Positions 36,961 through 48,016 of a DNA stretch of 64,000 bases are shown piece after piece. The stretch comes from Salinibacterium xinjiangense (lineage in GTDB: Bacteria; Actinomycetota; Actinomycetes; Actinomycetales; Microbacteriaceae): positions 496,001-560,000 of the forward strand of contig NZ_BMLC01000001.1 of assembly GCF_014645015.1 (NCBI RefSeq), given 5' to 3'. The notes under the pieces were generated by a model that was given only the letters and a program-made list of their open reading frames with translations, was not told the origin of the DNA and ran no database searches. Position 1 is the first letter of the stretch. Each line of letters starts with the position of its first letter. Position numbers and translations under genes: made by a program.

Positions 36961-37221
36961 TTAGACCAGTCCTGCGTTTCGCGCGACAACCGTCACGGTG
37001 TTGTTCTCGACCGAGAGAAACCCGTCGTCCGCCTGGGCGGTGATGACGTTGCCCTCGATAGTGGTCACACGCACCTCACCCTGAGCGAGGATCGCCAGCA
37101 CGGGCTCGTGCCCCGGCAGGATACCGATCTCTCCCTCCGTGGTGCGCGCAATGATCTGCTTCGCCTTGCCCGACCACACCTCGTGGTCGGCAGCGACGAC
37201 GCTGACCTTGAGTTCGGCCAT
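36961..37221 (-). CDS. atpC: ATP synthase epsilon subunit
   Basis: An 86-residue subunit of the F1 central stalk. The ATG at 37221 precedes MAELKVSVVAADHEVWSG; the longer frame lies inside atpD. GEIGILPGHEPVLAIL is the conserved beta-sandwich motif. The C-terminal helical hairpin of longer bacterial epsilons is absent, as in many actinobacteria, so inhibition by that hairpin is not expected. Confidence 0.95.
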   Translation of the reverse strand: MAELKVSVVAADHEVWSGKAKQIIARTTEGEIGILPGHEPVLAILAQGEVRVTTIEGNVITAQADDGFLSVENNTVTVVARNAGLV

Positions 37222-37223
37222 TA

Positions 37224-38717
<1,494 letters not shown>

Positions 38718-38720
38718 TCA

Positions 38721-39620
38721 CTACTTGGCCGAGCTCAGGGCGTCTGCGCCGCCCACGATCTCGGAAATCTGCTGTGTGATCTCAGACTGGCGAGCGTTGT
38801 TCGCCAGCCGGGTGAAGTCTTTGATGAGCTTGTCTGCGTTGTCGCTGGCCGACTTCATGGCCTTCTGGCGTGCCGCATGCTCCGACGCCGCCGACTGCAG
38901 CATCGCGTTGAAGATGCGACTCTCGATGTAGACCGGGAGCAGGGCATCGAGCACTTTATCGACCTCAGGCTCGAACTCGTACAGCGGCAACAGCTCGGTG
39001 TTGTCTGCACTCTCGACGCCTTCGACGACCTCGAGTGGCAACAGGCGTACGACCTCGGGGACCTGCGTGACCATGCTGACGAAGCGGTTGAAGAGGATGT
39101 GGATCTCGTCCACTCCTCCCTCCGCAGTCGGCTGCACGAACTTCGCGACAAGAGCCTCGCCGATTTGCTGCGCTGTCTCGAACACGGGCTGGTCGGTGCC
39201 ACCGATCCACTGGGCTTCGGATTCACGTTTGCGGAATGCGAAGTTAGCGACAGCCTTGCGGCCGACCAGGTAATACACGACCACTTTGCCTTCACCCTCG
39301 AGGCGGGTGCGAAGTTCGCCCATCTCGCGGATGATCTGCGAGCTGAACGCGCCGGCCAACCCTCGGTCCGACGTGAACAACACGACAGCTGCGCGAGTGG
39401 GGTTCTCGGCTTCGGTCGTGAGGATGTGGTCGACGTTCGAGAAGGTGGCGACCGCTGACACGGCGCGCGTCACAGCGCGTGAGTACGGCCCGGATGCTGC
39501 GACCCGCTGTTGCGCCTTTTGAATGCGCGAAGCGGAGATGAGCTCCATGGCCCGAGTGATCTTCTTGGTCGTCTGGGCAGACTTGATCTTCTGCCGGTAG
39601 ACCCGAAGTTGCGCTCCCAT
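38721..39620 (-). CDS. atpG: ATP synthase gamma subunit
   Basis: Rotor stalk subunit of 299 residues with the two long terminal helices that form the shaft. The N terminus is [29 protein letters not shown] and the C terminus ends [22 protein letters not shown] (each as family; first is only quoted in part). [19 protein letters not shown] is the core motif. It lies between atpA and atpD. Confidence 0.97.
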
Positions 39621-39675
39621 GTGGTGTGTCCCTGGTTTCGTGTGTAAAGAGTGGCTGGGTGGCTATCGCCTGAAG

Positions 39676-41313
39676 TTAGCGCTTGCCCTTGACGATTTTT
39701 TCCTGGTTGATGTCTTCATCAGGCGTCTCGGCGAACTGCTCGGAACCCGGGCTGGAGAGCGACTTGCCATCGCCAGTCTGGAATTCGAGCTTGAACTTAT
39801 CGACAGCTGCGTCGAGCGCCCCCACGGTCTCGTCGGAGAGCACGTTCGTCTCGCGAAGTGAGTCGAGCACCTTGGTGTTGCGCGCAAGATAGTCGTGAAG
39901 TTCACTTTCGAAGCGCAGCACATCTTCGACCGGCACCTCGTCGAGCTTGCCGTTCGTGCCGGCCCAGATCGAGACGACCTGCTTCTCGACGGGCATCGGC
40001 GAGTACTGCGGCTGGCGCAATAGTTCGGTCAACCGAGCACCGCGAGCAAGCTGGCGGCGGCTGGTGGCATCCAGGTCCGATGCGAACATCGCGAAGGCTT
40101 CGAGCGAGCGGTACTGGGCGAGCTCGAGCTTGAGTGTTCCAGAGACCTTCTTGATCGACTTGACCTGGGCGTCTCCACCCACTCGCGACACCGATATTCC
40201 CACATCAACCGCGGGGCGCTGGTTGGCGTTGAAGAGATCGGACTGGAGGAAGATCTGGCCATCGGTGATCGAGATCACGTTGGTCGGAATGTAGGCCGAG
40301 ACGTCGTTCGCCTTGGTCTCGATGATCGGAAGACCGGTCATCGAACCGGCGCCCAACTCATCTGAAAGCTTGGCACAACGCTCGAGCAGTCGGGAGTGCA
40401 GGTAGAACACGTCACCGGGGTATGCCTCGCGTCCCGGCGGACGACGCAGCAGCAGCGATACGGCGCGGTACGCCTCTGCCTGCTTCGACAGGTCATCGAA
40501 GATGATCAGAACGTGCTTGCCGTCGTACATCCACTGCTGACCGATGGCCGAGCCAGTGTACGGGGCGAGGTACTTGAAACCGGCGGGGTCTGAGGCGGGA
40601 GCCGCGACGATGGTCGTGTACTCCATCGCTCCGGCGTCTTCGAGGGCGCCCTTGACCGCAGCGATCGTCGAACCCTTCTGGCCGATAGCGACGTAGATGC
40701 AGCGAACCTGCTTGTTCGTGTCGCCGGACTCCCAGTTCGCCTTCTGGTTGATGATCGTGTCGATCGCGATAGCAGTCTTGCCGGTCTGGCGGTCACCGAT
40801 GATGAGCTGGCGCTGGCCGCGGCCGATCGGAATCATGGCGTCGATGGCCTTGATGCCGGTCTGCATGGGCTCGTGAACGCTCTTGCGCTGCATGACGCCG
40901 GGAGCCTGGAGCTCGAGCGCGCGACGCGTGTCTGAAGCGATCTCCCCGAGACCATCGATAGGCGCACCGAGCGGGTCGACTACACGGCCGAGGAATGCGT
41001 CCCCGACGGGGACGGACAGCACCTCTCCGGTGCGGCTGACCTCCATGCCCTCGACGATTCCGGTGAACTCACCGAGCACGACAACACCAATCTCGTCTTC
41101 GTCGAGGTTCTGGGCCAGGCCCAGAGTGCCGTCGGCGAAGGTGATGAGCTCGTTGGCCATCACGCCAGGCAGCCCCTCGACGTGAGCGATGCCGTCAGCA
41201 GCATCAATGACGTGACCGATCTCGGCCTTGGATGCTTTGCCGGGCTCGTACGCCTTGACGAAATCCTTGAGTGCGTCACGGATCTCGTCCGGGCTGATCG
41301 TGAGTTCTGCCAT
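39676..41313 (-). CDS. atpA: ATP synthase alpha subunit
   Basis: Non-catalytic nucleotide-binding F1 subunit, 545 residues. The ATG at 41313 has AGGAAG upstream and starts [15 protein letters not shown]; a longer frame to 41376 has no support. Walker [14 protein letters not shown] (about 172) and the [21 protein letters not shown] segment are present. A 99-bp gap separates it from atpH, with no gene in it. Confidence 0.98.
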
Positions 41314-41412
41314 TGTGTCTTCCTGTTCAGTGGAAAAGTTTGGTGCCGGTGCCAGTTGTGGTGATGCCACCGACACGACACTGGTGAAGCTTTGGTGGTG
41401 TGCCCCAGAGGG

Positions 41413-42207
41413 CTAGGAGGCTAGTTTGAGTCTGAGTTCGTTAATGCGAGTGGAGACGCTGCCGTCGATGACGTCGTCGCCGACCTGCACGCGGATTCCG
41501 CCCACGATGCTCGGATCGACCACAAGATTGACCTCGAGATCGCGACCGTAGCTCTTCGAGAGCCCGACGCGGAGTCGATCCACCTGTGCAGCGCTGATGG
41601 GTGCGGCCGAGGTGATGGTCGCGACGGCCAGTCCCGCTTGATCGGCGACGATCGAGGCGGCCGTACGGATGAGACCGCCGATGCGACGGCCGCGAGGCTG
41701 CTGCACGAGGTGATTCAGGATGGCCAGGGACTGCTCGCTGGACTTGTCCTTCAGCAGCGCACCGACGAGCGCGGCTTTCGCCGAGTTCGAACCGAGCTTG
41801 CTGCCTACGGCGAGCTCAAGCTCCGCATCGGACGATACGGCTGCACCGAACGCGAAGAGCTCGCTCTCGATCGACAGGCCACTGGGCGCGGAACGGGCAA
41901 CGGCACGAATACCGATCTCCTCGATTCCCGCGAGAAGCTGATCCTGAGTCGACCATCGTGAGGCGACGAGCCCTGAGAGCAGCGCCCGAGCCGGTGTTCC
42001 GAACGATGAGAAGAGGCTATCGATCACTGCCGTCTTCTCGGTGGCAGCAACCGACGGGTCCGCAAGCACCGAACGCAGCTGCGCTGAATCCCCGACGACG
42101 CGGCCCGCACTGAAAAGCTGCTGCCCTGCCTCGAGTGCGTCGGTGATGTCGAGCGAGCCGAGCGCCGTGCGGGCATCCGCCAGCGCCACCCTGGTTGCCG
42201 ATCCCAT
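41413..42207 (-). CDS. atpH: ATP synthase delta subunit
   Basis: Peripheral-stalk subunit linking F1 to subunit b, 264 residues. That is longer than the 178 of E. coli but usual for actinobacteria. The C-terminal block VATITSAAPISAAQVDRL and VVDPSIVGGIRVQVGDDVIDGS is typical. Start overlaps the atpF stop by one base (TAATG). Confidence 0.95.
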   Translation of the reverse strand: MGSATRVALADARTALGSLDITDALEAGQQLFSAGRVVGDSAQLRSVLADPSVAATEKTAVIDSLFSSFGTPARALLSGLVASRWSTQDQLLAGIEEIGIRAVARSAPSGLSIESELFAFGAAVSSDAELELAVGSKLGSNSAKAALVGALLKDKSSEQSLAILNHLVQQPRGRRIGGLIRTAASIVADQAGLAVATITSAAPISAAQVDRLRVGLSKSYGRDLEVNLVVDPSIVGGIRVQVGDDVIDGSVSTRINELRLKLAS

Positions 42208-42767
42208 TACAGGCCTGCCTTGGCCTTGTCGTCAGTTTCGAGCTCGGCGAGGAACTGGTCGACCAGGGTCGACGCTCGCTTGTCGTCACTGAGGCTCTGG
42301 CCGATGACGCCCGATGCGAGGTCGATCGCTAGCGATCCGACCTCGGCCCGCAGCGAAATGAGTGCACCCTGGCGCTCAGCCTCGATGGTCGCCTGCGCGT
42401 TCGAGGTGATGCGGGCAGCCTCGATGGCAGCCTGCTCCTTGAGTTCCGCGAGAATCCTCGTACCGTCAGCGCGAGCCTGATCGCGGATCTTCGCAGCCTC
42501 GGCACGACCCTCAGCGAGCTGATCCTTGTACTGGGATAGCGCCGCAGCGGCCTCGGCCTGGGCGATCTCGGCCTTCTTTATGCCACCCTCGATGGCCTCG
42601 GACCGGGCATCCAGCGTCTTCTTGACCGAAGGAAGGAACTTCCTCCAGAAAACGAACAGGATGATCGCGAAACAGACGGCCGACCAGATGATGTCGTACG
42701 ACTCGGGCAGAAGCGGGTTAGGCGCTGCCTTGGTTTCCGCTACCGCAGTCAGGATTGCGCTAAGCAT
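42207..42767 (-). CDS. atpF: ATP synthase subunit b
   Basis: Peripheral-stalk subunit of 186 residues: one N-terminal transmembrane helix (about 27-45, IIWSAVCFAIILFVFW) and a long charged Ala-rich helix for dimerisation. GGAGG lies just upstream of the ATG. It is 27 bp after atpE. Confidence 0.96.
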   Translation of the reverse strand: MLSAILTAVAETKAAPNPLLPESYDIIWSAVCFAIILFVFWRKFLPSVKKTLDARSEAIEGGIKKAEIAQAEAAAALSQYKDQLAEGRAEAAKIRDQARADGTRILAELKEQAAIEAARITSNAQATIEAERQGALISLRAEVGSLAIDLASGVIGQSLSDDKRASTLVDQFLAELETDDKAKAGL

Positions 42768-42794
42768 TCCTGCCTCCTCTATGACTGGTGATTG

Positions 42795-43031
42795 CTACGG
42801 GAACGGGATGAACGCGACGGCGATCGCGACGAACGCGAGAGCCTCGGTGAACGCAATGCCGAGGAACATGAGGCCGGTCAGGCGTCCCTGCAGTTCAGGC
42901 TGGCGCGCAACCGACTCGACGGTTTTTCCGACGACGATACCCACGCCGATGGCGGGGCCGATGGTCGCGATGCCGAAGGCGATCGGCGCGAGGTGGCCGT
43001 TGATCTCGGCGACGGTCGTGATGGGGTCCAC
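42795..43031 (-). CDS. atpE: ATP synthase subunit c
   Basis: Membrane rotor proteolipid of 78 residues: two transmembrane helices with the polar loop VARQPELQGRL, and the proton-carrying Glu63 in GIAFTEALAFVAIA. No sodium-type ligand set is evident, so proton coupling is expected. Confidence 0.98.
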   Translation of the reverse strand: MDPITTVAEINGHLAPIAFGIATIGPAIGVGIVVGKTVESVARQPELQGRLTGLMFLGIAFTEALAFVAIAVAFIPFP

Positions 43032-43076
43032 GTGTGTTTCCTTTCAGGGGGGCGAACTGGCGAGTGCCAGGCTCGT

Positions 43077-43898
43077 TTAGTGATCTTCAGCCAGCGCGAG
43101 CTGGATGTAGGCGGCGGTGAGAAAAGCGAAGACGTATGCCTGAAGCACGGCGACGAGGATCTCGAAGATGGTGAAGATGAAACCGAATGCCAGGGTTCCG
43201 ACGCCGAAGAGGGCGAAGAATCCGCCAGCGCTGAAGAAGAAGAACTGCGTGGCCGAGAAACAAAGCACCAGCAGCATGTGGCCGGCGATCATGTTCATCA
43301 GGAGTCGGAGGGCGAGCGTGACCGGCCGCAGGATGAAGGTCGACAGGAACTCGATCGGGGTCACGATCACATAGAGCGCGGCCGGGACGCCGGACGGGAA
43401 CAGCGCCGATTTAAAGAACCCGCCGCCCGACTTCTTCACGCCTGCGTAAATGAAGGTGACGTATGCGACCAGTGCCAGCACGAGCGGGAGCCCGATCACC
43501 GACGTTCCGGTGAGGTTGATGCCCGGGACGATTCCAGTGACGTTCATTCCCAGCACGGTGATGAAGATCGCCGTGATGACCGGCAGGAAGCGAGCGCCTT
43601 CCTTTTTGCCGAGGTTTCCCTCGACGATGTTGGACTGCACGAAGCCGAGGATGGATTCGATGATCGACTGGCCTCGGCCGGGGATCATCTTCATGCGCCG
43701 GGTGCCGAGCCAGAAGACCAGGACGATGACCGCGACGACGAAGAAGCGAATCAGGATGACGCGGTTGATTTCAAACGGCGTGCCCTCGAAGAAGAGGACA
43801 GGCGGGAAGAAGTCTTCCAGCGTGGGTCCCTTGAACTCACCGTCGTCCGGACCGGCAGCGGCGACGAAGGGGAGAAGGGTGAGAGCGTGGTGTAACAG
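43077..43898 (-). CDS. atpB: ATP synthase subunit a, probable CTG start
   Basis: Membrane stator forming the proton path, 273 residues as proposed. The ATG at 43694 would give only 205 residues and remove the first transmembrane helix. The same frame continues upstream with family-typical sequence (GPTLEDFFPP, GTPFEINRVILIRFF, VIVLVFWLGTRR) to an in-frame TAG, with no ATG, GTG or TTG on the way. CTG at 43898 has GGAG 6 bases upstream and yields about the expected length; ATT at 43913 is an alternative. The essential Arg lies in VTLALRLLMNMIAGH. It is the first of the eight ATP synthase subunit genes. Confidence 0.9.
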   Translation of the reverse strand: MLHHALTLLPFVAAAGPDDGEFKGPTLEDFFPPVLFFEGTPFEINRVILIRFFVVAVIVLVFWLGTRRMKMIPGRGQSIIESILGFVQSNIVEGNLGKKEGARFLPVITAIFITVLGMNVTGIVPGINLTGTSVIGLPLVLALVAYVTFIYAGVKKSGGGFFKSALFPSGVPAALYVIVTPIEFLSTFILRPVTLALRLLMNMIAGHMLLVLCFSATQFFFFSAGGFFALFGVGTLAFGFIFTIFEILVAVLQAYVFAFLTAAYIQLALAEDH

Positions 43899-43997
43899 CG
43901 CTGGCTCCAGAATCGGGGCGTGAAAACACGCGGCGACGAAAGGTGGGGGGCGTTCTCTAAGACTCTACCAAGACTTCGACAGGGTGAAGAACACGAA

Positions 43998-44450
43998 CTA
44001 GCCTTTTGCCCCCTCATCGGCGCTATCGGGAAGTGCAACAGCACCCACGTGTGGCACCCGTGCGCCCACGAATGCGACGACATCGACCGCAAGACTGCCG
44101 ATGACGGCAGCGAGGATAGAAAAGAACATCACCAGGGGCTCGATGAAAGGCTGATCGCGCAGGATCACGAGAATCGCGATGAAGACCACGAATTTCAATA
44201 ACCACACTCCGAGCACGATGCCGAAGAACAGGGTGCTCGACGGCTCATTGTGGGTGATCTTCGCGGCGAGCACGATGCTCAGTGCCGTGAATCCCATGAA
44301 GAGCGCCGTGAGGCCAGCACCCACAAGCGCGCTGATGAGTCCGGGATTGCCGGCGACGAGGTATCCCACCACCGAACCCACGATCGCGATGATCGCGGTC
44401 AGGATCGCCCCGTAGACGATCGCCCTGGCGAGAATTGTTGCTGTCTTCAT
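43998..44450 (-). CDS. atpI: AtpI-like membrane protein
   Basis: A 150-residue protein with four hydrophobic helices, placed between wecA and atpB where actinobacteria carry an AtpI-like gene. E. coli AtpI helps assemble the c ring; that role here is by analogy because sequence conservation is low. The ATG overlaps the wecA stop by 4 bp. A 99-bp gap without a gene follows before atpB. Confidence 0.8.
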   Translation of the reverse strand: MKTATILARAIVYGAILTAIIAIVGSVVGYLVAGNPGLISALVGAGLTALFMGFTALSIVLAAKITHNEPSSTLFFGIVLGVWLLKFVVFIAILVILRDQPFIEPLVMFFSILAAVIGSLAVDVVAFVGARVPHVGAVALPDSADEGAKG

Positions 44451-45685
44451 ACTGGAGATTCTTTCGGGTCGGGGGCCGATGCTGCTGCGTTGAGAAGGTC
44501 TTCGTCTGCTGCTTCATCCAGCGCGTCGAAGCGGGGGTCTGCGCCATCATCGCCCGCGGACTGGGCGCGCACCTCGAGCGCTTTGCGCTTGCTCAGGGGT
44601 GAGAGGGTGACGACCGTACAGATGATCAGGCCGACCACGATCAACAGCGTGGCGACGTACCAGGGCACGAAGCGATAAGCGAGCACACCGACTGAGACAA
44701 CGAACGTCCAGGCGTAGAAGATCAGCACGGCGTGCAGGTGCGGGTGTCCCATATCGAGAAGTCGGTGATGCAGATGCTTCCGGTCAGCCGAGAACGGCGA
44801 CTTGCCGGCGCGCAGTCGACGCACAATCGCGAGACCGAAATCGAGCAGCGGGATCACCAGCACTGCGAAGGGGAGCAGGATCGGAATGAACGCCGGCAAC
44901 AACGACGCAGTGAACTGGTCTGGCTGATTCAGGACGTCTGGATCGACCTGGCCGGTGACAGAGATGGCCGATGCCGCCATCAGTAGACCGACGAGCAATG
45001 CGCCGGCATCGCCCATGAACAGCTTCGCCGGATGGAAATTCAGCGGCAGGAAGCCGATGCACGCGCCGATCAACACAGCTGAGATGAGGGAGGCGAGGTT
45101 GAAGTACTCGGTTTGGGCGCTCGACTGGAGCACATACGTATAGACGAAGAACACGCCGTTGGCGATCAGAGCGACGCCCGTGACCAGCCCATCCAGCCCA
45201 TCGATGAAATTGATCGCGTTCATGACGAGCACGATCGCGAAGACCGTGATGATCAGGAGCACGTACGGTGACAGGATCGTGCGTCCGAAGATGGGAACGG
45301 TGATGATCTGGACCCCCTGCCAGGCGAGCAGGCCGGCCGCGATGAACTGCCCGGCCAGCTTCGTAACCCAGTCCAGATCCCAGATGTCGTCAGCAACCCC
45401 GATAAGCACGATGATCGATGCCGCACCCAACAGGCCGAGCACCTTGCCAGGCTCCGTGAAGACGATGCTGAAACTGTCGATCTGGGATGCCACGGCGAAG
45501 GCGATGAGCATCCCGAAGAACATCGCGACGCCACCCAGCCGTGGCGTCGGCCTGGTATGGACGTCACGGTCGCGGATCGTCGGATACAGGCGGTATTTCG
45601 TACTGAGCTTCCAGATTACGATTGCCAGCGCGTAGGTGACGACCGCCGCGACCCCCGTGACGATGAGATAGAAGACTATTCGCAT
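44447..45685 (-). CDS. wecA: Undecaprenyl/decaprenyl-phosphate GlcNAc-1-phosphate transferase
   Basis: Polytopic membrane enzyme (412 residues, about 10-11 helices) that starts cell-wall glycopolymer synthesis by moving GlcNAc-1-P to a polyprenyl phosphate. Motifs: RPTPRLGGVAMF, VADDIWDL (Mg-binding Asp pair), NAINFIDGLDGL, FMGDAGALLVG and ADRKHLHHRLLDMGH. A charged cytoplasmic tail ends the protein. It overlaps sua5 by 10 bp and atpI by 4 bp. Confidence 0.94.
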   Translation of the reverse strand: MRIVFYLIVTGVAAVVTYALAIVIWKLSTKYRLYPTIRDRDVHTRPTPRLGGVAMFFGMLIAFAVASQIDSFSIVFTEPGKVLGLLGAASIIVLIGVADDIWDLDWVTKLAGQFIAAGLLAWQGVQIITVPIFGRTILSPYVLLIITVFAIVLVMNAINFIDGLDGLVTGVALIANGVFFVYTYVLQSSAQTEYFNLASLISAVLIGACIGFLPLNFHPAKLFMGDAGALLVGLLMAASAISVTGQVDPDVLNQPDQFTASLLPAFIPILLPFAVLVIPLLDFGLAIVRRLRAGKSPFSADRKHLHHRLLDMGHPHLHAVLIFYAWTFVVSVGVLAYRFVPWYVATLLIVVGLIICTVVTLSPLSKRKALEVRAQSAGDDGADPRFDALDEAADEDLLNAAASAPDPKESPV

Positions 45686-46332
45686 CGATCGGCCCCCACG
45701 ACAGCATGGATCCGCTCGGTCGAGATCGTACCTTCACGCACGATGCGCAGCTTGCCGTCGGGGAGCGAGAGTGACGTGGCATCTACGATCGTCGATGACA
45801 CGGATCCACCTTCGCCGTCGTCGAGGAAGATGCTGACCGAATCCCCCAGCATGGCTTCGGCGCCCGCCGCGGTGGTCGCCGCGGGCTCACCCGTGAGGTT
45901 GGCACTCGACACCGCGAGCGGGCCGGTTTCTGACAGGAGTTCGAGCGCGATGCGGTTCGAGGGCATGCGCAGCGCGACTGTGCCCCTTGTCTCCCCGAGG
46001 TCCCATTGAAGCGACGTTTGTGCTGGAAGGATGATCGTCAGCGCGCCGGGCCAGAATGTCTCCACCAACAGGCGCACCTCGTCGGGAACGCTCTCGGCAA
46101 GCGCGTCGAGGGTAGGTATGCCCGGAATCAACACCGGCGGAGGGGACTGCCGCGTGCGCCCCTTCGCGTCGATCAGCTTTTGAACGGCGGCCGGGTTGAA
46201 CGCGTCGGCAGCAAGACCGTAGACGGTGTCGGTGGGTATCACGACGAGCTCCCCGCGACTGATCGCGACCCGAGCGAGACGCATGCCGGTGAGGAGCTCG
46301 GCCTCAACCGAGCAATCGTAGATGGGTCCCAT
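45676..46332 (-). CDS. L-threonylcarbamoyladenylate synthase (Sua5/YciO/YrdC)
   Basis: Makes threonylcarbamoyl-AMP for the t6A modification of ANN-decoding tRNAs. The 218-residue protein has the YrdC core: VVIPTDTVYGLAADAF, KGRTRQSPPPVL, FWPGALTIIL, VALRMPSNRIA and LAVSSANLTGEPA. The extra C-terminal Sua5 domain is missing, so it is the short form. Normally next to prmC; here a HAD gene lies between them. Confidence 0.94.
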   Translation of the reverse strand: MGPIYDCSVEAELLTGMRLARVAISRGELVVIPTDTVYGLAADAFNPAAVQKLIDAKGRTRQSPPPVLIPGIPTLDALAESVPDEVRLLVETFWPGALTIILPAQTSLQWDLGETRGTVALRMPSNRIALELLSETGPLAVSSANLTGEPAATTAAGAEAMLGDSVSIFLDDGEGGSVSSTIVDATSLSLPDGKLRIVREGTISTERIHAVVGADRCE

Positions 46333-46491
46333 GTCGCGTCCATGCTACTCGTGGAAGCCCCGAAGCTCGCGAACGGTCGCGTCGCCAGGGCGTGAAAGAC
46401 TGGATGATGCCGTGGATATCTACTTCTCTGATCCTGACCCCAGCTCCCAGTCGCTTCTCCCTGGCACCCGGGCGTTCGTGAGGTTGCACCG

Positions 46492-47124
46492 ATGAACCTG
46501 CTGTTTATCTTCGACATGGACGACGTGCTCTACGACTACGACTGGCGCGTCCGGATGGCCGGAATGACCGAGCTCACCGGGTTGTCCCTCGCCGAGTTGC
46601 GCGAACGCTGGTGGCACGACGACGGCGAGTGGGCCGGTGAGGCAGGGCGGTTCGAGATGCCGGACGCTTACCTCAGCGCCTTCACCGAGTCGATCGGTGT
46701 CGATGTAGACGAGGACGAATGGGTGCGGGTGCGCGGTTCGGCGATGACCGTGCGGCCCGATGCCATCGCTGCGGTTCGCCGGGCATCCGAGCTCGGAACA
46801 ATCACACTGCTGACCAACAACAACGCCCTCACCGCAAAGCATCTGCACACCCTCGCACCAGAGCTCGTCGAGCTATTCGGCGAACACCTGCTGACCTCAA
46901 GCCACTATCGGGCGCGCAAACCCCATCCCGTGGTCTTCGAACGAGTGCTGGCGGCGTACGACACCGCCGCGGCGAACGCGTTCTTCGCCGACGACATGCG
47001 CGAGAATGTCGACGGAGCCCGCTCCATCGGTATCACTGCCTACCATTACGGCTCGGCCTCGGGAATGCTCTCCGCGATCGAGGCCTTCGCCGAGGAGCGC
47101 GCCACTGGAGCAGGCCAGGGCTGA
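46492..47124 (+). CDS. HAD-superfamily hydrolase
   Basis: A 210-residue HAD phosphatase-like enzyme. Motif I is IFDMDDVLYDYD (nucleophile Asp near residue 8), motif II LLTNNNA, the Lys motif RARKPHPVVFE and motif IV FFADDMRENVDGA. A helical cap lies between motifs I and II. GAGGT precedes the ATG by 7 bases. It is on the opposite strand to the surrounding prfA-prmC / sua5-wecA genes and ends 3 bp from prmC, so it interrupts an otherwise conserved order. Substrate unknown. Confidence 0.9.
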   Translation: MNLLFIFDMDDVLYDYDWRVRMAGMTELTGLSLAELRERWWHDDGEWAGEAGRFEMPDAYLSAFTESIGVDVDEDEWVRVRGSAMTVRPDAIAAVRRASELGTITLLTNNNALTAKHLHTLAPELVELFGEHLLTSSHYRARKPHPVVFERVLAAYDTAAANAFFADDMRENVDGARSIGITAYHYGSASGMLSAIEAFAEERATGAGQG

Positions 47125-47127
47125 GTT

Positions 47128-47985
47128 CTAGCGCAGCGCAGTCGTCGCGCGATCACGACCGAGGAGGTCGCGGTGGTGGGCGATTGCCGTCCATCCGTCG
47201 TGTCTGAGCAGCGCCCCTATCTCCGCGGCCTGCAACTCGCCGTGCTCGAGGATGAGCGAGCCACCCCGGCGCAGCAGACGCAGAGCCGTCGCCGAGACCT
47301 GGCGAACGACATCCAGGCCATCGTGCCCCCCGTACAGCGCGATCTCGGGGTCGAACAGTCGCACCTCGGGATCGCGCGGGATGGCACCGAGCGGAATGTA
47401 CGGCGGATTGGAGATGACGACATCGACACTGCCATCGAGGCTCGGGAGGGCGTGCGCGAGGTCGATGAAGACGGCGGTGGCGTTGGGCGCATCGACGGTG
47501 CGGAAGTTCTGCCGCGCCCAGACGAAAGCACGAGGCGACACCTCGACACCATAGACGCGGGCATGAGCAACCTCGGTGGCCATGGCCAGCGCGATCGCGC
47601 CACTGCCCATACCCAAATCGACGCCGACCGGTTCGGGTGAGGCCGTGGCCCGAAGCGCATCGATGGCGAACTGGGCCACGAATTCCGTCTCCGGCCTCGG
47701 AACAAAGACCCCGGGGCCGACGGCAAGTTCGAGCTGGCGGAACGCCGCCCTGCCGGTGATGTGCTGCAGGGGCTCCCTCGCGGCACGGCGTTTCACGAGT
47801 TGCTCGATCGTGGCGGAATCCTCAGCGGAGACGATCGTCCCGGTGACCGCCTTCGCCTGCACTCCCCCGCGGCTGAGGCCGAGCACGTGCCCGACGAGAA
47901 GTTCGGCGTCGACCGACGGATTCGTGATTCCGGCGCTTGATAGCGTGTCGATTGCCCGCTGGAGCAGTTCTGTCAGGGAGATCAT
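47128..47985 (-). CDS. prmC: Release factor glutamine methyltransferase
   Basis: Methylates the Gln of the GGQ motif of release factors using S-adenosylmethionine. 285 residues from the ATG at 47985, which precedes MISLTELLQRA; a longer frame overlaps prfA. N-terminal helical RF-binding domain, VPRPETEFV, SAM loop DLGMGSGAIALAMA and catalytic NPPYIPLG. It follows prfA, its substrate, by 31 bp. Confidence 0.95.
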   Translation of the reverse strand: MISLTELLQRAIDTLSSAGITNPSVDAELLVGHVLGLSRGGVQAKAVTGTIVSAEDSATIEQLVKRRAAREPLQHITGRAAFRQLELAVGPGVFVPRPETEFVAQFAIDALRATASPEPVGVDLGMGSGAIALAMATEVAHARVYGVEVSPRAFVWARQNFRTVDAPNATAVFIDLAHALPSLDGSVDVVISNPPYIPLGAIPRDPEVRLFDPEIALYGGHDGLDVVRQVSATALRLLRRGGSLILEHGELQAAEIGALLRHDGWTAIAHHRDLLGRDRATTALR

Positions 47986-48016
47986 GGTGTCGATGGGCTT
48001 TCCGACCCTGAGTGGA

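Follow-up and report, generated by a model that had tools for sequence, protein, structure and literature searches.

The F-type ATP synthase operon of Salinibacterium xinjiangense raises the question of where translation of atpB, the gene for subunit a, begins. In the stretch of DNA that was analysed (64,000 nucleotides, called 'the window'), the atpB frame ends at position 43077 of the minus strand and is open back to a TAG (Table 1). No in-frame ATG, GTG or TTG was found between this stop and the ATG at 43694, in agreement with the original prediction. A mechanically produced list of open reading frames begins atpB at this ATG (205 amino acids), while a protein begun at the CTG at 43896-43898 has 68 codons more (273 amino acids), the frame being open for another 22 codons upstream of the CTG. 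The gene is positioned between an atpI-like gene and atpE, which is the expected order (the neighbours were named from sequence and position), and among the atpB loci of relatives 167 yielded homologues of atpE and atpF, and 164 one of atpI. The nearest named relatives of the genome were Salinibacterium and Rhodoglobus, both of the Microbacteriaceae.

Table 1. Coordinates of the atpB locus features in the window
Feature	Position	Strand	Remarks
atpB, F-type ATP synthase subunit a	43077..43898	minus	273 aa from CTG; PF00119, E 1.6e-53
In-frame TAG closing the frame upstream	43965..43967	minus	Frame reading
First in-frame ATG	43692..43694	minus	Initiation here would cost 68 residues, the first predicted membrane helix among them
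CTG start codon (strongly inferred)	43896..43898	minus	27/27 genus genomes; 123/128 Microbacteriaceae genomes, 117 clean
GGAG Shine-Dalgarno core	43905..43908	minus	6 bases before CTG; matching CCTCC at the 16S 3' end of this genome
Leader hairpin UCG-CC-GCGUG-UUUU-CACGC-CC-CGA, 2x2 internal loop	43913..43936	minus	Fold and covariation
Extended -10-like element TTGGTAGAGT, presumed atpB promoter	43962..43971	minus	TTGnTAG-type in 42/74 genera
atpI-like gene upstream, ATG start	43998..44450	minus	Name inferred from position
atpE, subunit c, GTG start, control gene	42795..43031	minus	Name from sequence and position
atpF, subunit b, ATG start, control gene	42207..42767	minus	Name from sequence and position

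The CTG-started protein matched PF00119 (ATP-synt_A) over profile positions 2-217 of 217 with 182.2 bits (cutoff 33.9), whereas the protein started at ATG 43694 matched only from profile position 25, leaving positions 2-24 unmatched. Family-typical sequence had been predicted to extend 68 codons upstream of the ATG and to include the first transmembrane region, and both points held: the alignment with the best solved relative ran from query residue 44 through a segment that looks like the first membrane helix and that ends just before Met 43694. A start further downstream, at ATG 43694 or at another internal codon, with the CTG being an ordinary or an untranslated codon, is therefore very improbable, even though this ATG is the first standard start in the window's frame, since the part upstream of it is conserved as protein.

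The GGAG predicted six bases before the CTG was found at 43905-43908, and is a valid Shine-Dalgarno (SD) core, since the 16S 3' end of the same genome carries CCTCC. The spacing between SD and CTG fell in class 5 in 179 of 196 CTG loci and in class 6 in the other 17. Originally, the start had been given as CTG or ATT; the CTG proved to be conserved, but the ATT (43911-43913) was not retained as a candidate, its position varying among genera (AAA in 21, ATT in 14 and AAT in 9 of 74 genera, plus others). Likewise, the in-frame CTG overlapping the SD (43908-43910) was CTG in 11 of the 74 genera and CAG in 44. Initiation upstream of the SD, at either of these two codons, or by frameshifting from another frame, would make use of the open codons before the CTG, but it has an almost negligible probability: these codons are not conserved, one extra base between the ATT position and the GGAG shifts the frame upstream of the SD in three sister genomes (L006, L007 and L014), and in 12 loci (Microbacteriaceae and family f12) the stop that closes the frame leaves just 3-5 codons before the CTG, with no standard codon in between in 10 of the 12.

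Inspection of sister genomes for ATG or GTG, proposed together with the original prediction, revealed neither at the start position, the codon there being CTG in all 27 searched genomes of the genus. Chance and a sequencing error as sources of the missing standard start were thereby ruled out. In 22 of these genomes the stretch between the in-frame stop and the end of codon 25 lacked ATG, GTG and TTG, and in the remaining five a standard codon occurred only upstream of the CTG, never within the five codons preceding it.

A search of 299 Microbacteriaceae genomes (family f1) gave a match in 298, and loci were read in 128 genomes from 78 genera. Starts were called with ATG, GTG, TTG, CTG, ATT, ATC and ATA weighted equally, in combination with the SD and within a limited range; eight loci (L043, L065, L069, L121, L156, L162, L172 and L306) were assigned by hand from motif and context. 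The start was CTG in 123 genomes, TTG in three, ATC in one (G086) and unassigned in one, with 73 of the 78 genera having CTG only. Among the named loci, which overlap with the 128 genomes, CTG was called in 79 of 80 and TTG in one. Codon-blind SD calling, from which locus L287 was dropped for want of a match, suffered from noise, as stretches of G-rich coding sequence resemble SDs, and still had CTG as the commonest codon in this family (76 of 129 loci; next codon 11). The ATC of G086 (L149), another near-cognate codon, takes the place of the CTG after a GGAG SD and was seen in this single genome, and in Okibacterium and a relative (L043, L065 and L069) CTG and SD are retained with an N-terminus about 20 codons longer.

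Six of the 123 CTG-called genomes, from three genera, carry a standard codon slightly further upstream, at a distance of one or two codons from the CTG, leaving 117 clean cases. In these loci (L047-L050 of g47, L160 and L195) the standard codon, GTG in g47 and ATG in g13 and g6, is close to the SD, so that translation in these genomes could start at the standard codon; they may represent lineages that regained a standard start. These genomes weaken the family count, but not the case in the Salinibacterium genus.

In 63 genomes, from 49 of the 74 CTG genera, a standard codon was present within codons 2-10 after the CTG. Such codons could be taken to favour a downstream start, and CTG is not forced as the start where they are available. 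The commonest was GTG at codon 6 (32 genomes), which would exceed a suitable distance from the SD by about 15 bases, and over 72 aligned rows codon 6 was GTG in 23, CTG in 11, CTC in 10, CTT in 5, GTA in 5, ATG in 4 and TTG in 3, in addition to others. The downstream standard codons are thus not found at one place among the relatives, and the window has none within codons 2-10. In a further 57 CTG genomes (27 genera), no standard codon occurred from five codons before the CTG to codon 10. The start column was CTG in 73 of 73 aligned rows (which had been selected for CTG), compared with mixed codons in two other leucine-rich columns (CTG 47%, CTC 37%).

The neighbouring atp genes were used as controls, and mostly began with ATG, GTG or TTG. 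The same kind of caller gave GTG in 127, ATG in 34, TTG in two and no start in four of 167 atpE loci, and ATG in 107, GTG in 17, TTG in three and no start in 37 of 164 atpI loci. For atpF (167 loci), on which the same caller was noisy, the calls were ATG in 100, GTG in 28, CTG in 14, none in 16 and others in the rest. The 14 CTG calls were taken as probable noise, since an SD-like 4-mer followed by a standard codon is present at 156 of the 167 loci of atpF.

CTG starts were also found in sampled members of seven families beyond Microbacteriaceae. Within the same order, CTG was called in 9/9 loci of f9, 9/9 of f12, 3/3 of f18, 6/8 of f13 and 4/10 of f7, the six non-CTG loci of f7 being read as GTG by eye. 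In two families of other orders, CTG was found in 6 of 19 loci of f34 (the rest being GTG) and in 27 of the 30 genomes that were read in f21, from 57 matches in 61 genomes (the other 27 matches, 21 of them very weak, were left unread). Two f21 loci (L331 and L332) have lost the CTG and have an ATG three codons downstream in its stead, and a third (L339) was unassigned. Eight families (f2, f5, f8, f11 and f14-f17; one or two loci per family) had GTG, and f3, f10 and f19 had mixed or ambiguous starts, with none called in nine loci of f10. CTG calls at L241 (f6) and L282 (f45) look false and were left out of the counts. In one genus of f21, g137, searching with this query gave no AtpB match in any of eight genomes; its subunit a is probably very divergent.

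For a tree of 105 rows, AtpB proteins were trimmed of their first 41 residues (57 rows CTG, 42 standard and 6 neither; the label 'standard' was given by eye to f10, two f7 rows, L144, L363 and L382). All 57 CTG rows fell within one clade of 84 rows (support 100/100), and the 21 rows outside it were all standard. The start label required 12 changes on the tree, compared with 32.1 for shuffled labels, and well-supported branches force at least five changes. With every CTG row in a single clade of strong support, CTG initiation probably arose long ago in one AtpB lineage of actinomycetes and was lost repeatedly; one old gain followed by such losses is the simplest reading, several gains being also possible. 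On the same tree actinomycete AtpB splits into two deep types, and f34 contains both, which suggests transfer or loss of paralogues.

Upstream of the CTG, an extended -10-like element of the TTGnTAG type was present in 42 of 74 genera, compared with 0.8 expected from shuffles. The leader also contains a hairpin, which in the window ends four bases before the SD core, and which was seen by eye, by single-sequence folding and in structure-guided alignments. The fold of 43909-43942 had an energy of -11.1 kcal/mol (z -3.85), and single-sequence folding of the leader stretch in 74 genera gave a mean z of -1.83, with 57 below -1. In a structure-guided alignment of 19 sequences, compensatory changes on both sides were counted in 12 cells against a shuffled mean of 3.6. 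Among 69 model-aligned matches (three of them away from atpB) there were 37 both-sided cells against 12.8, and 0-6 when the partner was slid, in an alignment that leans toward its own structure. RNAalifold on a MAFFT alignment of 57 sequences gave no hairpin (two pairs, none covarying), which we think was due to misalignment of a stem of variable length. A model (R1) matched at atpB in 66 of 79 Microbacteriaceae loci (12 of them training rows), and, as it includes SD and CTG, these matches do not prove the hairpin independently. Beyond this family (92 loci) it gave nothing convincing. No Rfam match was found in 37000-48000 at the gathering cutoff, or in 43800-44100 at E up to 10. An AGCG/CGCT pairing is possible around the CTG (43884-43902), also appears in the predicted fold of 43872-43955, and would bring the start codon into a loop or close to one.

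Searching for the fixed form of UCG, stem and CGA gave 29 of 74 in Microbacteriaceae (2.44 expected), 18 of 27 in f21 (1.6 expected; these rows are mutually related, and the counts not independent), 2 of 3 in f18 (0.04 expected) and 1 of 4 in f7 (0.02 expected), while the 2 of 6 in f13 (0.22 expected) have long loops and are doubtful. Hairpins like that of Microbacteriaceae precede the CTG in two other families. The form was absent in f9 (0/9), f12 (0/9) and f34 (0/6), all of which have CTG, so CTG and hairpin are separable. This separation, together with the presumed short 5' UTR after the promoter-like element, would suit a hairpin whose main role is protection of the 5' end, or keeping promoter and ribosome-binding site apart, unrelated to the CTG. 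We regard such a role as possible though unlikely, because the hairpin reaches almost to the SD and shows enrichment in three CTG families (f1, f18 and f21), with none before standard starts (1 of 34, 1.38 expected).

We favour, with moderate confidence, an explanation in which a conserved weak CTG start, together with SD and leader, sets or gates the synthesis of subunit a. From the sequence comparisons we strongly infer that atpB is initiated at CTG 43896-43898, presumably as fMet by the initiator tRNA. The conserved SD would recruit the ribosome and place it at the CTG, in Microbacteriaceae probably with help from the hairpin just before the SD, which may keep the site accessible to ribosomes or respond to some factor. 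The CTG itself would keep initiation inefficient. Subunit a is needed once per complex, its excess would be harmful, and the multicopy subunit c is encoded next; the arrangement is probably kept because it limits or gates subunit a relative to subunit c. A disfavoured codon kept beside a conserved SD in a once-per-complex gene points to selection for low or gated output, and we hypothesise on these grounds that the CTG start has a regulatory purpose, with stoichiometry being what suggests a throttling of subunit a.

Alternatively, the CTG could be the start but a tolerated relic, with SD and context sufficing and no regulation involved. This is a serious contender, if an unlikely one: several lineages inside the CTG clade have standard starts, which suggests that CTG is dispensable. 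However, a single transition would yield TTG, yet most genera keep CTG with conserved SD and leader, and CUG very seldom replaces AUG (2 of 61,358 ancestral AUG starts; PMC5622118). A selected weak start remains our preferred explanation. We would extend it only with considerable doubt to the idea that the ATP synthase operon has an old cis-acting translation switch made up of hairpin, SD and CTG together, which would respond to initiation-factor balance or cell state and provide subunit a, and so a functional proton channel, only when assembly can use it.

If true, these results would mean that a core bioenergetic gene has had its start codon kept as CTG in many genera and several families. 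Gene callers restricted to ATG, GTG and TTG would misplace the AtpB N-terminus, by 68 residues in this genome. The CTG of atpB allows a test of whether selection uses weak starts to balance the subunits of ATP synthase. The covarying leader, for which Rfam gave no match in the window, is a candidate for a regulatory RNA.

In the open-access literature on CTG starts in atpB, ATP synthase, Microbacteriaceae or actinobacteria, and on a structured leader, no account of the present arrangement was found. Conserved near-cognate starts are already known elsewhere, and atpB resembles them in having the same non-standard codon across species with an SD at a suitable distance. The infC gene starts with AUU or AUA; in Escherichia coli the codon is AUU, and pcnB reportedly starts with AUU there as well. 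The likeness of these genes to atpB is a near-cognate start that is said to keep expression low, for infC (IF3) with modulation by IF3 itself (as given in PMC13009471); they differ in codon and gene, and infC is under its own control by way of IF3, a direct route that is closed to atpB. In Staphylococcus aureus, conserved near-cognate starts with extended SDs, as in cvfC1 (AUU) and ccpN (AUA), reduce yield (PMC13009471), whereas atpB has CTG, encodes an ATP synthase subunit, spans several families and in some of them has a leader hairpin. Reporters carrying an SD showed no enrichment of CTG in mycobacteria (0.03%; PMC4633059), a result that fits a weak start, yet casts doubt on CTG working in actinobacteria. 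Conserved non-AUG starts of chloroplast genes have, like that of atpB here, been proposed as a layer of control, but in an organelle and to raise rather than lower output (PMC9845219). Compared with F-type ATP synthase subunit a in general (PF00119), this atpB conforms in family and gene order, and only its start codon and leader are unusual.
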